Origin: Rheinheimera salexigens
Lineage (GTDB): Bacteria; Pseudomonadota; Gammaproteobacteria; Enterobacterales; Alteromonadaceae
DNA: 64,000 bases
NCBI RefSeq assembly: GCF_001752395.1
Contig: NZ_MKEK01000001.1
Coordinates: 2,223,147 to 2,287,146, forward strand
Direction of reading: 5' to 3'
Made by a program: the position numbers and the translations under genes. This document shows, piece by piece, positions 55,893 through 60,474 of this stretch; the first letter of the stretch is position 1, and each line of letters opens with the position of its first letter. The notes below the pieces were generated by a model. That model was not told the DNA's origin. It was given only the letters and a program-made list of their open reading frames with translations, and searched no databases.

Positions 55893-56534
55893 ATGTTGAA
55901 CCTAGCTAGCATGCCAAGGCATGATGAAGCTCACTATTCACAGTGGAGCTCACCCGCCGGAATGACAGAACAGGTTAGTTGGGAACAAACATTAGCGTCA
56001 ATTGGCTTACAGCGAAACAAAGCGGCCTATGCATTATTATTTGCCCATTTTGCCCCAAGATTAAAAGCCTTTGGTATCAAACTGTTTGGTAACGAGCAAC
56101 AAGCGCTAGAAATGGTGCAAGATACCATGCTGAATGTTTGGCAAAAAGCCGCCTTATTTGATGCCTCAAGAGGGGCCGCTTCAACGTGGATATTTACTAT
56201 CGCCCGTAATGTTCGTTTTGATATGTTACGCAAAAAACAACGGCGTAAAGATGATATTAGCGCGGATGATTTATGGTTTGATGGCGAGTATCCTGAGGTA
56301 GAGCTGGAACAAAGTGATTATCATTGGGATATAACCTTATTACTGGATAAGTTAGCCCCACATTTTGCCCAATTGCCCCCCGCGCAAAGTGAGGTAATCA
56401 CTAAAGTGTATTTAGAAGAAAAAACCCATCAAGAAGTATCAGATGAATTATCGATCCCACTTGGTACCGTTAAGTCACGGTTACGGCTTGCATTAGACAG
56501 ACTAAAAGAGGCTTTTGATGGCTCACATAATTAA
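55893..56534 (+). CDS. ECF sigma factor, RpoE/ChrR-partner type (ECF11-like)
   Basis: Extracytoplasmic-function sigma factor, 213 residues. Sigma region 2 spans about 40-105 (AYALLFAHFAPRLKAFGIKLFGNEQQALEMVQDTM, then WIFTIARNVRFDMLRKKQRR) and region 4 about 150-205 (EKTHQEVSDELSIPLGTVKSRLRLAL). The gene overlaps the ChrR-like anti-sigma gene by 17 bp, the classical arrangement for sigma-E/ChrR pairs that respond to singlet oxygen or organic peroxides. GGAAGAG lies seven bases before the ATG. Regulon unknown. Confidence 0.9.
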   Translation: MLNLASMPRHDEAHYSQWSSPAGMTEQVSWEQTLASIGLQRNKAAYALLFAHFAPRLKAFGIKLFGNEQQALEMVQDTMLNVWQKAALFDASRGAASTWIFTIARNVRFDMLRKKQRRKDDISADDLWFDGEYPEVELEQSDYHWDITLLLDKLAPHFAQLPPAQSEVITKVYLEEKTHQEVSDELSIPLGTVKSRLRLALDRLKEAFDGSHN

Positions 56535-57207
56535 ACATCATCCAAGCACTGAGTTGCTGCAACAGTTCACTACTGGCACCTTAGTGGCCGATATTGCTTT
56601 AGCCATCGCTGCCCATGTTGATATGTGCCCACAATGCCAGCAATTAAGTTTAGATATGGCTAACGATATTGGTACTGATATTGAGCAAACTGTTATTGAT
56701 GCCCCCACTGGCAATGAGCAAAATAACTGGTCAGCCATGTTAGAAGCTATTATGCAACAACCTGTTGTTACTCTGAATACGGCTGAGCCAAAACCTATAG
56801 CAGCCGTTACAGTAAAAGTTAATCAACGTGAGTTTATATTGCCAAGGGCCCTACAACGCTTAGCCACAAACCATAATAAATGGTTGCAGCTTGGCGGCAT
56901 TGCCAGTGCTAAAGTACCAGCAGGTCCGGGTCATCATGTGTCACTACTGCATATTGATAAAAATACCGCTGTACCTCAACACACCCATTTAGGCTTAGAG
57001 ATAACATTAATATTGGCTGGTAAAATAGTCGATGAGGATGGCGAATATGGCGTCGGTGATTTATTAGTAAACTCACCCGATGTCACCCATACACCGCGCA
57101 CACTAGCTGATGAAGACTGTTTGTGTTTATCGGTGTTAAGTGCGCCTTTACAATTTAAAAAAGGCTTAACTCGGTTATTAAATCCGTTCCAACAATTTTT
57201 TTATTAA
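56518..57207 (+). CDS. chrR: ChrR-family zinc anti-sigma factor
   Basis: Cytoplasmic anti-sigma factor, 229 residues, that holds the preceding sigma factor until singlet oxygen or peroxide is sensed. The N-terminal zinc domain has His 33, Cys 37 and Cys 40 (HVDMCPQC) and His in the KHH stretch at residues 6-8, as in Rhodobacter ChrR. The C-terminal half (about 130-215) is a ChrR-type cupin with PQHTHLGLEITLILAGKIVDEDGEYGVGDLLVNSPDVTHTPRT split across it, giving His, His, Glu and His metal ligands. The start ATG at 56518 lies inside the sigma gene. Signal-sensing role by family knowledge. Confidence 0.92.
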   Translation: MAHIIKHHPSTELLQQFTTGTLVADIALAIAAHVDMCPQCQQLSLDMANDIGTDIEQTVIDAPTGNEQNNWSAMLEAIMQQPVVTLNTAEPKPIAAVTVKVNQREFILPRALQRLATNHNKWLQLGGIASAKVPAGPGHHVSLLHIDKNTAVPQHTHLGLEITLILAGKIVDEDGEYGVGDLLVNSPDVTHTPRTLADEDCLCLSVLSAPLQFKKGLTRLLNPFQQFFY

Positions 57208-57320: not shown

Positions 57321-59573
57321 TTAGCTAAGTAAGGCGGTACCGCCTTTTAAGTTATACACTTCGGCAAAACCCATAGTTGATAGAATTTTACATGCCACTA
57401 AGCTTCTATTACCTGAACGGCAGACTAATAATAATGGTTGCTCAGGTTTAAGTTCGGCATTTATTAATGCATCCGCCAATTTAGACAATGGAATTTCATT
57501 CACCAGCACATTACTTGGCAGATATAAGCTTAGTGCGCCCGCACTTTGCTCGTGCGGCTCGCGAACATCGATTACTTTAGCATTGGGCTTACTTTGTAAA
57601 AATGCAGCCATATTTTCTGGCGCAATCACATCGGTGGCATCGGCATAGCTCACTTCAACTAAACCACAAAAATAGGTACTGACTTGTTGTAGCTTAATCG
57701 CTTGGGCGCGTAACTCGGATTGCCATTGCTCTGCCGGTAACTGTTGTAATAGCTGGGCTAATAAAGGTTGTTGGGCACAGGCTTGAGCAAAAGTGGTAAA
57801 GAAGCGCTGGGCATAATCATGGCTAGACAGGATTAAACAGTCTTGGCCCAATTTCTGCGCCAATAAACGTATACTGCTGGCTAATTCAGTCATGCTGCCA
57901 CCGGCTAGATCGGTGCGACCAATGCCTCCGGGTAATAATACATCACCAACAAAAGCGGCTTGCAGCTGATCTTGTTTAAACATTAAAATACTAATTGCTT
58001 CGGGTGTATGACCTGGAGTATTTAGCTTCTCAAGTCGATATTGGCCGGCCACAATGGTGTTTTGCTGTAACGGCCAACCTAAATTATCGACGTTTTGTTT
58101 TTCATCAACTAACCCCGCTAGCATCAGTAACGCGCAGCGCGCAGATTGATGATCCTGATGCAAGTGTGTATCTAATACCGCAACGAGGTCTAAATCTTGC
58201 CCCATAACAATATTGGCTATCCGGCTGGCTAAAGGTAACACCGGATCAATCACTACAGCTTGGCGAGTATCTTGACAAATAATAATGTAACTACATAAAG
58301 CTTCATGTTTTAACTGAATTAAACCATGAGCATGCAATTCTAACGTCGGTGTTGCATCGGTAAGCACTAAACAGTGTTTACACACCACATCGGCGAGCTG
58401 GGCAATGCGTTGACAAGCTTGCTGACATTCTTGTTCTGTCATTGCTGGGCCAAAGGATAGCCGAATAGCACCTTGGCTGCGCCAAGCTTCTAAACCCATG
58501 GCGTCTAACACAAAACTACTGGGCACTTTAGAGCTACAGGCTGAACCCGAACTTACCCGTATGCCAGCGGCATCAAATAAATCCATTATGTCTTTACTAT
58601 AAAAGCCCGGCACCGAGAAATTCAGTGTGGTTGGTACGATAAAAGGCTGATCACTGTTTAAGACTAAAGCTGGAAACACAGTGCGTAAAGCTTTTAATAG
58701 ATTGTCACGATAGCGCCATAAAGTTGCTTCGGTTTGAAAAGCAGAATCAGTTGTTTTGGTTAACTCGGTAAATATAGCTTGTAAGGCTGCGATACCCGGC
58801 AAGTTTTCCGTACCCGAGCGTAAGCCACTTTCTTGACCACCACCGGCGATAAAAGGCTGATAAGGTGAGCCATCACGCACATATAAAAAGCCAATCCCCT
58901 TAGGCGCATATAATTTATGACCGCTAAAGGGCGCATAATCGATACTAGTTTTAGCAATATTCAAGGCCATTTTACCCAATGCTTGCACGCAATCGACCAT
59001 CCAAAATACGTCTGGGTTAGTATCTCGGATCAGTTTTTCTAACTTGGCTAAATCTTGTATTACGCCCGTTTCATTATTGGCAGCCATGGTGCAAACCATA
59101 ACCGCTTTTGGCAAAGCCGTACGTAAAAATTCATAATCAATAATACCGTTTTGATCAACAGGTATGGCTTGTACCGTCGCATTAACTTGCAGCACGTGAT
59201 TCCAATGCTTCAAGCTTTCTGGCACGGCTTTATGCTCGGTTGAGCAATATAACAATAGCGTGTCAGCACCCACCTGCCCCTTTGCTCTAGCAGCGAGTAA
59301 GGCCGATACAATAGAGGTTTGAATGCCTTCAGTAGCACCAGAGGTAAAAACAATATCGCCACTGGTGGCGCCGATTAGTTTACGCGCTAGTGCTCGGGTT
59401 TTTTCTAACTCGGCTTTGGCCTTAATGCCAGTAGTATGGCTACTACTTGGATTACCGAAACTACTTTGCATCGTATGCATGGCCGCTTCTGCTGCAACCG
59501 CTAATACCGGCGTAGTCGCATTATTATCTAAATAAACTTCGCTAAGTGACGACAACGGTTTAATTGATGACAT
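57321..59573 (-). CDS. Cysteine desulfurase-persulfide dioxygenase-rhodanese fusion protein
   Basis: A 750-residue cytoplasmic protein with three enzyme modules. Residues 10-395 are a group-II-like/IscS-type cysteine desulfurase: YLDNNATTP, His 114 (STEHK), PLP Lys 220 (FSGHKLYAPKG) and active Cys 346 (SSGSACSSK). Residues about 405-640 are a metallo-beta-lactamase domain of ETHE1 type: THLHQDH (His 470, His 472, Asp 474, His 475), GHTPE (His 522), FVGD (Asp 544), GIGRTD and SSHDY (His 585). Residues about 645-750 are rhodanese with Cys 718 in CRSGNRS. All key residues are intact. Together it could release sulfur from cysteine, carry it as a persulfide and oxidise it to sulfite. ATG preceded by AGGG at eight bases. 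A fusion of all three is unusual. Confidence 0.92.
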   Translation of the reverse strand: MSSIKPLSSLSEVYLDNNATTPVLAVAAEAAMHTMQSSFGNPSSSHTTGIKAKAELEKTRALARKLIGATSGDIVFTSGATEGIQTSIVSALLAARAKGQVGADTLLLYCSTEHKAVPESLKHWNHVLQVNATVQAIPVDQNGIIDYEFLRTALPKAVMVCTMAANNETGVIQDLAKLEKLIRDTNPDVFWMVDCVQALGKMALNIAKTSIDYAPFSGHKLYAPKGIGFLYVRDGSPYQPFIAGGGQESGLRSGTENLPGIAALQAIFTELTKTTDSAFQTEATLWRYRDNLLKALRTVFPALVLNSDQPFIVPTTLNFSVPGFYSKDIMDLFDAAGIRVSSGSACSSKVPSSFVLDAMGLEAWRSQGAIRLSFGPAMTEQECQQACQRIAQLADVVCKHCLVLTDATPTLELHAHGLIQLKHEALCSYIIICQDTRQAVVIDPVLPLASRIANIVMGQDLDLVAVLDTHLHQDHQSARCALLMLAGLVDEKQNVDNLGWPLQQNTIVAGQYRLEKLNTPGHTPEAISILMFKQDQLQAAFVGDVLLPGGIGRTDLAGGSMTELASSIRLLAQKLGQDCLILSSHDYAQRFFTTFAQACAQQPLLAQLLQQLPAEQWQSELRAQAIKLQQVSTYFCGLVEVSYADATDVIAPENMAAFLQSKPNAKVIDVREPHEQSAGALSLYLPSNVLVNEIPLSKLADALINAELKPEQPLLLVCRSGNRSLVACKILSTMGFAEVYNLKGGTALLS

Positions 59574-59707
59574 GATGGGTACCCTAAGCCTTATAACTAA
59601 TTAGCATAATATATATCGTATTATCATAACTGGCTTAGGCTAACAGCTCAAGGCAGGATACACCTTGTTTAGTGTTTAGTTTTAGATAGTGAAAATACAC
59701 ACTGCCT

Positions 59708-59757: not shown

Positions 59758-60474
59758 TTATTCTATTAAATCTTTTGGGATTTCTGGTCGCAACTCGGCC
59801 CAGATTAAGCCACTTTCACGTCCATACTTACGCACGGCAAATACCACTTCATCAAATTTACCATTTTCAGCATGAACTTTAATTTGGTGATAGTAGTTAC
59901 GTGCCACTTCGCGCGCTTTTGGATGCGAAAAATAAAAGCGGGCAATTTTATTATATAAGCCACGAAAGCCGTTTAAAATTAGTACATAAATCCGATTAGC
60001 AGAATGTAACGCCAATTCATGATTTAAATTATAATCAAACTCAGCATAAGCTTCAGCGGTGTCTTCTAGCAATTCGGCGCCAGCAAAAACTTCAATCACT
60101 CGTTCGGCATTATTTTTAATCGCACCACGGATATAAATAGCACTGATATTAGTCCGCGCCGAAAGCAGCTCGTCCACTAAATCAGGCATATGCTCTTCAT
60201 CTAAACGGGCTAAGGTTTCTAGAATATTTAAACCTGACGTTTCCCAGAAGTTATTTACTTTAGTTGGTTTACCATGCTTGATAGTAAGCCAACCATCGCG
60301 AGCTAAACGTTGTAACACTTCACGTAAAGTAGTTCTAGTTACGCCAATCAACTCCGACAGTTCGCGCTCTGCGGGTAAAATGGAGCCAGGTGCAAATTTG
60401 CCATTCCAAATAGAATCGACAATGTATTCTTCTGCGAAACCGGCTGGGCTTTGCGCTTTTATCAAGTTGGTCAT
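59758..60474 (-). CDS. fadR: Fatty acid metabolism transcription regulator FadR
   Basis: GntR-family acyl-CoA-responsive regulator that represses fatty acid degradation and activates unsaturated fatty acid synthesis, 238 residues. N-terminal winged helix (about 10-75): [57 protein letters not shown] spread over that stretch, with the Arg/Thr/Arg recognition helix intact. The C-terminal seven-helix acyl-CoA-binding domain follows (FGxR-like [16 protein letters not shown] at the end). E. coli FadR is 239 residues. A FadR-like site lies against its own -10 element, implying autoregulation. DNA in front of fadL carries another site. Confidence 0.95.

Follow-up and report, generated by a model that had tools for sequence, protein, structure and literature searches.

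The window analysed here is a 64,000-nucleotide stretch of Rheinheimera salexigens contig NZ_MKEK01000001.1 (positions 2,223,147 to 2,287,146; host genome G000 in our numbering). At 57321-59573 its minus strand carries a gene that runs from an ATG start through 750 codons without interruption; the plus strand has stops throughout this interval. The 750-amino-acid product joins a cysteine desulfurase (CD), a persulfide dioxygenase (PDO) and a rhodanese (Rhd) in one chain. An initial annotation had proposed these three domains in a single frame and listed their active-site residues, each of which lies at its predicted number: the pyridoxal phosphate (PLP) lysine K220 and the persulfide cysteine C346 of the CD, the PDO residues H470/H472/D474/H475, H522, D544, G552-R553-T554-D555 and H585, and the Rhd cysteine C718. 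Among relatives the catalytic residues at the two ends of this protein are fixed, and in many of them the middle has decayed. The obligatory core of the family is probably a cysteine-to-rhodanese persulfide relay, with the PDO as an optional oxidative outlet.

Three Pfam models, Aminotran_5, Lactamase_B and Rhodanese, each match the protein above their cut-offs (Table 1). When PDB chains were searched with phmmer, the first part of the protein aligned with the NifS-like protein 1ecx and residues 425-746 with BpPRF, a PDO-rhodanese, bearing out a likeness to dioxygenase-rhodanese fusions that had been pointed out before. AlphaFold2, run on a 63-row alignment, gave a mean pLDDT of 86.5 and a pTM of 0.84, with pLDDT below 50 only at residues 1-8, 404-412 and 640-646, the last two falling between domains. 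The top solved Foldseek match to the predicted structure is 1ecx. As the best 50 of the 1832 Foldseek matches are all cysteine desulfurases and selenocysteine lyases, the metallo-beta-lactamase (MBL) fold of the middle and the Rhd fold rest on sequence matches and secondary structure. The window protein has all 11 PDO residues that we checked, Y587 included. The 2-His-1-Asp triad H470, H522 and D544 is intact, as are the second-sphere and glutathione (GSH) residues H472, D474, H475, R553, D555, H585 and Y587, and to judge from these residues its PDO is probably a working one.

Three further cysteines away from the active sites of CD and Rhd, Cys427, Cys401 and Cys636, are kept in 87, 82 and 84 of 89 rows respectively, and are possible relay or structural cysteines. 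Cys636 aligns with the cysteine of the LKCG motif of BpPRF and presumably corresponds to the essential C224 of the dioxygenase AcPDO.

Table 1. Features at the fusion locus; positions count from the first letter of the window, and residue numbers are those of the window protein
Feature	Positions	Strand	Basis or remark
Whole gene, CD-PDO-Rhd fusion, 750 aa	57321..59573	-	Open reading frame, Pfam, relatives' loci
NifS/IscS-like CD domain, residues 12-395	58389..59540	-	PF00266 (Aminotran_5) 13-384, 4.2e-60; phmmer to 1ecx 12-393, 8.5e-64; Foldseek top match 1ecx
PLP lysine K220 codon	58914..58916	-	Kept in 121/121 aligned members
CD persulfide cysteine C346 codon	58536..58538	-	Kept in 121/121
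Linker 1, residues 396-424	58302..58388	-	AlphaFold2 pLDDT <50 at 404-412
MBL fold / PDO domain, residues 425-610	57744..58301	-	PF00753 (Lactamase_B) 502-582, 1.3e-5; phmmer to 5ve3 425-746, 2.7e-21; 4ysb, 4chl
Predicted iron ligand H470	58164..58166	-	Motif alignment to PDOs; 84/91 in 91-row set
Predicted iron ligand H522	58008..58010	-	Motif alignment to PDOs; 84/91
Predicted iron ligand D544	57942..57944	-	Motif alignment to PDOs; 87/91
Residues 611-649: helix, conserved Cys636, linker 2 (640-646 low confidence)	57627..57743	-	C636 in 84/89 rows; aligned with LKCG of BpPRF
Single C-terminal Rhd domain, residues 650-750	57324..57626	-	PF00581 (Rhodanese) 660-746, 5.1e-9 in whole protein, 4.6e-10 alone; 1qxn 2.9e-9
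Rhd catalytic cysteine C718 codon, loop CRSGNRS	57420..57422	-	Kept in 121/121
fadR, co-directional upstream neighbour	59758..60474	-	Kept in most genus loci; not seen beside fusions outside the genus
ECF sigma factor and ChrR-cupin pair, convergent downstream neighbour	55893..57207	+	Neighbour comparison
Promoter-like site in the 184-base gap between fadR and the fusion gene	59623..59651	-	9/12 match; weak

A frameshift or assembly join between residues 395 and 410, which on the terms of the initial annotation would have refuted the fusion, was looked for and not found: all 74 loci L001-L074, encoding 53 distinct proteins with the window protein included, hold the whole fusion in one open frame. 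In pairs with measurable synonymous divergence (dS), nonsynonymous divergence (dN) falls well short of it in each of the three domains; dS is near saturation in several of the pairs compared. The fusion is also present in relatives, whose lack of it would equally have counted against it. Our genome searches scored few candidates per genome, so the genome counts are lower bounds. The full fusion is present in 31/31 sampled genomes of the genus (the host's own included, at 60-100% identity), in 0/5 genomes that the same sample has from the family's other genera and in 3/24 genomes of the order's other families. A larger sample of the order, in which other genera of the family do include carriers, gave matches at E <= 1e-60 in 43/394 genomes, 40 of them over the full length; 41 of the 43 were opened, G144 and G198 being left out. 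A phylum sample that overlaps the others gave matches in 10/398 genomes. Among the named carriers are Rheinheimera, Alkalimonas, Arsukibacterium, Pseudoalteromonas, Thalassotalea, Parashewanella and Shewanella sp. OPT22. In Pseudoalteromonas it also lies on three replicons (0.8-1.3 Mb) that are recorded as plasmids; on one the match is labelled 'aminotransferase class V-fold PLP-dependent enzyme', and on the other two there is no listed gene at that place.

One match outside the order, L110, led to a second clade, which we guess to belong to the Burkholderiales. In L110's order 4/300 genomes match at E <= 1e-60, one of them with a plain CD. A query of CD and Rhd alone found matches in 60/195 genomes of the second-clade family, of which 59 are 51-58% identical and one is a plain CD at 40%. 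In a control family of the same order 43/117 genomes match at E <= 1e-52, none above 40% identity, so a gap separates the fusion family from ordinary CDs. Of the 59 family-like matches 34 were opened whole (30 loci and L110, L138, L199 and L200), and 33 distinct rows were used. The final alignment of 121 members combines these 33 with 88 rows of the first set. All rows were gathered by similarity to the window protein and many are close kin, so our counts are of rows, not of independent events. Rows were dropped for a stretch of X (L166), as a plain CD (L139), as identical to L137 (L157), as rhodanese-only matches (L075-L082), as unopened CDs of at most 40% identity (L170-L198) or because the CD is partly cut off (L201 and L202; the middle of L201 was seen and is uncounted). 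A 550-aa minimum applied in one search lost no row.

The catalytic residues of the two ends do not vary. K220, C346 and C718 are each kept in 121/121 members, and in a 91-row set ten CD residues and six Rhd residues are each present in 91/91. The PDO site is complete at all eleven residues in 33 of the 121 members and at only the eight core residues in a further 30, giving 63 complete cores. Another 21 retain nothing complete but the iron triad, 33 have a broken triad and 4 have no PDO domain. The full triad is thus kept in 84/121, and the core is incomplete, triad-less or gone with its domain in 58/121. In the second clade the triad is kept in 0/33 rows (29 triad-less, 4 without the domain) and the HxHxDH motif in 0/33, against 63/88 in the first set. 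The broken triads of the first set are those of L071, L074, L111 and L113. The initial annotation had proposed a self-contained route from cysteine to sulfite. The window protein, with 11/11 PDO residues, could still follow it; as the family's shared function it does not stand, because the PDO is damaged or missing in these 58 members and the CD and Rhd cysteines are always kept.

By profile similarity the dead middles are MBL remnants. An hhalign comparison of 28 dead middles with the 63 intact ones gave a probability of 100 (E 6.2e-42), against 0.1 for a column-shuffled control. Single rows gave 99.6 for L111 and 0.2, that is no detectable MBL, for L113, which is counted among the 33 triad-broken rows all the same. 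Pfam Lactamase_B finds nothing in L113, L110, L111, L071 and L085, and matches L062 and L121. The 608-aa protein of L113 (3356-5179, minus strand) has a CD and a Rhd with a middle of no MBL similarity, either a remnant past recognition or a replacement domain. In L020 (1498-3801, minus strand) and L027 (1498-3789, minus strand) short imperfect repeats resembling QHELQHELQ are inserted exactly at the place of the metal motif.

The mutants of AcPDO suggest what these losses may mean. According to the excerpts of PMC6060420, its iron ligands are H57, H113 and D130, the activity of D61A, H62A and H171A is not above detection, and R139A, D141A and H59A retain 0.4%, 1.5% and 6.6%. Matched by motif order and not by alignment, H57/H113/D130/D61/H62 correspond to H470/H522/D544/D474/H475 here, and H171/R139/D141/H59 to H585/R553/D555/H472. 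D474 and H475 are among the PDO residues most often changed. To judge by AcPDO, the 21 members with the triad alone probably have a poor or dead dioxygenase. D555 is asparagine in 30/91 rows; the change may weaken those members too, which makes 63 complete cores a generous count.

The history of these losses was followed in two quick trees and one careful tree of 38 rows built on CD and Rhd columns; L113, a long branch, was excluded from the second quick tree. On the quick CD tree of 91 rows the core changes between complete and incomplete at least six times, three of them forced by starred branches. On the careful tree the four CD-Rhd rows nest in a 31-row clade whose other 27 rows have a dead PDO (support 100/97). 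Absence of the domain needs three changes on this tree, and a single clade of CD-Rhd rows is disfavoured (AU p 0.023). We read the direction as loss, since regaining the same motifs would be implausible.

Selection on the altered middle differs between the clades. In the first, its dN/dS is 0.02-0.08, like that of the ends, in the triad-only pairs L045/L047, L021/L022 and L020/L027 and in the no-triad pair L071/L074 (0.05); other first-clade pairs reach about 0.12 or have saturated dS. In eight dead second-clade pairs the middle stands at 0.21-0.36, where the CD has 0.06-0.23 and the Rhd 0.03-0.27. The stretch from CD to Rhd (residues 396-640) varies in length between 152 and 247 aa in the second clade, and measures 17-22 aa in its CD-Rhd rows. 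From this we infer a single path that would lead from constraint through relaxation to excision.

On the reading that we favour, the CD would convert L-cysteine to alanine and leave a persulfide on Cys346, which would pass over the flexible linkers to Cys718 of the Rhd and from there to glutathione or protein thiols. Where the 2-His-1-Asp iron site is intact, the PDO would oxidise glutathione persulfide to sulfite, which the Rhd could combine with further persulfide to form thiosulfate. In many relatives this outlet would have lost second-sphere residues, its iron site or the whole domain, ending in a CD-Rhd protein. We infer the chemistry, direction of flow, substrates and physiological role; the architecture, conservation, decay and nesting behind them are observed. 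Glutathione synthetase is found in the host genome, as in 10/10 genomes searched, and glutathione is therefore available.

Several points weigh against this picture. The direct hand-over from CD to Rhd is assumed. With 63/121 members keeping the eight core residues and 33 all eleven, the dioxygenase is probably under selection there, and in such lineages it may be essential. At D474 and H475 several of the replacements are conservative ones (D to E, H to Q), which may leave activity in place. In the first clade the altered middle is as constrained as the ends, so that calling it a dispensable outlet leaves its remaining role unexplained; perhaps it is held for binding or structure. Finally, L121, with an intact core, branches between the dead rows L151 and L145 and other dead rows (92/74), which means either further separate losses or a misplacement, and makes the history within the larger clade a provisional one.

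A fuller account of the same observations is one that we put forward only tentatively, and as a whole. In it one orthologous family would have changed its product in the course of evolution. The ancestral single chain would have passed cysteine sulfur from CD to Rhd to PDO and released it as sulfite or thiosulfate, with no free sulfide on the way, and from this state lineages repeatedly became persulfide exporters. The dioxygenase would have been broken and then deleted, with the CD-Rhd protein of Pseudorhodoferax, unusually fast and used in a cysteine biosensor, as the end state. Intermediate lineages would keep the broken dioxygenase under selection as a pseudoenzyme module.

The neighbours add no pathway clue, as the initial annotation had already concluded. 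Most loci of the genus share the order dsbB, fadR, fusion, convergent chrR-sigma pair and S9 peptidase. In every genus locus of sufficient length the chrR-sigma pair lies beside the fusion, L002 excepted: there the S9 peptidase gene comes next. The Alkalimonas loci L042 and L044 keep the chrR-sigma and S9 side, and some 8 kb of sequence upstream of the fusion gave no match to fadR or dsbB. Over 23 loci, many with 4 kb flanks, no adjacent neighbour is common to distant lineages, and sharing is among close kin; the fusion gene looks like a stand-alone gene. Gene clusters c7, c17 and c23 recur scattered at varying distances from the fusion, c17 directly beside it in L112 (5688, plus strand) and several genes off in L066 (16711, minus strand). 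Between 55700 and 61300 no RNA family reached its gathering score. The region has 10 promoter-like sites where shuffles give 8.9, and 6 terminator-like sites where they give 3.3 (sd 2.1).

How do other explanations compare? The dioxygenase could be the point of the protein, a self-contained oxidiser of cysteine to sulfite or thiosulfate whose broken-site relatives have lapsed. All 11 PDO residues are in place in the window protein and in 33/121 members, and the cysteine dioxygenase model PF05995 finds nothing in G000 and in 10/10 genomes searched (control matches in 1/14), which would give another means of oxidising cysteine sulfur a use. A NIR_SIR protein, of the sulfite or nitrite reductase type, occurs in G000 and 7/10 genomes. 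Its presence shows no link with the state of the PDO: G413 and G422, with no triad, are without it, but so is G020, whose PDO set is complete. We consider this explanation unlikely, given the 58 members that keep the CD and Rhd cysteines with a damaged or missing PDO and the lack of any recurring neighbour that points to sulfite or thiosulfate handling. A Blh-like dioxygenase frame of 301 aa also lies elsewhere in the host genome (C1:3005135-3005995, L132; model positions 138-421 of 423), and seven of the ten other genomes have an equally strong match (E under 1e-100 in 8/11 genomes; below the curated cut-off in 11/11, with weak matches to the model in 13/14 controls). With a second dioxygenase at hand, the cell could tolerate decay in the fused one. 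Less likely again is that the middle is throughout the family a module for binding or docking glutathione persulfide or a partner domain, not an oxygenase, its intact iron sites being residual or regulatory. The purifying selection on damaged first-clade middles in four pairs fits this, as do the ratio of MBL to CD dN, which is alike whether pairs are intact (median 1.9, 13 pairs) or eroded (median 2.2, 10 pairs), and the family-specific C427, kept in 87/89 rows, L071 and L111 among them. Yet all eight core residues survive in 63/121 members and the domain is absent in 4/121, and in the second clade, with its more relaxed dead middles, C427 is kept in only 12/31.

The NifS/IscS fold of the CD would suit a housekeeping enzyme for iron-sulfur clusters or tRNA thiolation with incidental extra domains. 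We rejected this as very improbable: at least two CD-like frames besides the fusion (409 and 420 aa) are present in G000, 351/394 genomes of the order have no match at E <= 1e-60, and the NCBIfam cut-offs for NifS, IscS, DndA and SufS are not reached, the best being the NifS model TIGR03402 with 288.6 of 530.75 bits. An artefact of assembly or frameshift, refuted by the single open frame in all 74 loci and by purifying selection in all three domains, can be given practically no weight. Two other assignments were also rejected: glyoxalase II (NCBIfam GloB, 67 of 200.8 bits; 21 eroded members keep the iron triad) and membership of Blh (NF040641, 33.6 of 625 bits).

The family forms a natural series of complete enzyme, decayed middle and no middle, which lends itself to asking what a built-in dioxygenase does for a source of cysteine persulfide and hints at the origin of some CD-Rhd proteins. 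A description on these lines would supersede the database label 'aminotransferase class V-fold PLP-dependent enzyme'. The series also warns against reading three working enzymes into every chain whose domain architecture is intact.

Each part of the protein has known counterparts. Like the group I cysteine desulfurases NifS and IscS, its CD is a fold type I PLP enzyme with a catalytic lysine and a cysteine loop. It stands apart from them as a subfamily: in 13 first-clade rows the CD shares 60-90% identity with that of the window protein, second-clade matches reach 51-58%, and other CDs met are at most 40% identical. PDO-Rhd proteins oxidise glutathione persulfide. Like BpPRF (5ve3-5ve5), the window protein has a PDO followed by a single C-terminal Rhd with its catalytic cysteine; unlike it, BpPRF has two domains and no CD. 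In CstB, which has more than one rhodanese-type domain, and in Blh, to go by its model name, a PDO is likewise joined in one chain to sulfur transfer. The HxHxDH, GH, GD, GRTD and HDY motifs are shared with ETHE1, MxPDO and AcPDO (4chl and 4ysb aligned; AcPDO from the excerpts of PMC6060420). These enzymes have no CD domain, and the fusion family tolerates loss of residues essential in AcPDO.

The initial annotation had held that a fusion which also includes the sulfur-producing CD was not known to be characterised. This stands for the added dioxygenase; it does not for the joining of CD to Rhd, already described in Pseudorhodoferax (excerpts of PMC8931425). As far as we found in the open-access full-text literature, which excludes preprints and lacks most subscription journals, the union of CD, PDO and Rhd is uncharacterised, and its CD-Rhd and PDO-Rhd halves are both characterised. 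The CD-Rhd of Pseudorhodoferax sp. Leaf274 (WP_056898193.1) is, according to the excerpts of PMC8931425 and PMC12319549, a bifunctional homodimer: the Rhd cysteine C466 stimulates the CD and passes persulfide on from the CD to acceptors. Its authors rank it as the most efficient of the CDs characterised to date. Like the window protein it carries a CD and a C-terminal TST-type Rhd in one chain, with both cysteines kept; unlike the window protein it has no PDO, and its Rhd follows the CD directly. The four CD-Rhd rows found here resemble it in architecture, size and spacing, the link being through these and not through sequence. Its 54 kDa, as given in the same excerpts, is the size expected for their 513-519 aa. 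The distance from cysteine to cysteine is 132 residues in Pseudorhodoferax (C334 to C466) and 140-143 in L140, L141, L199 and L200, against 372 in the window protein, where the dioxygenase still lies between them.

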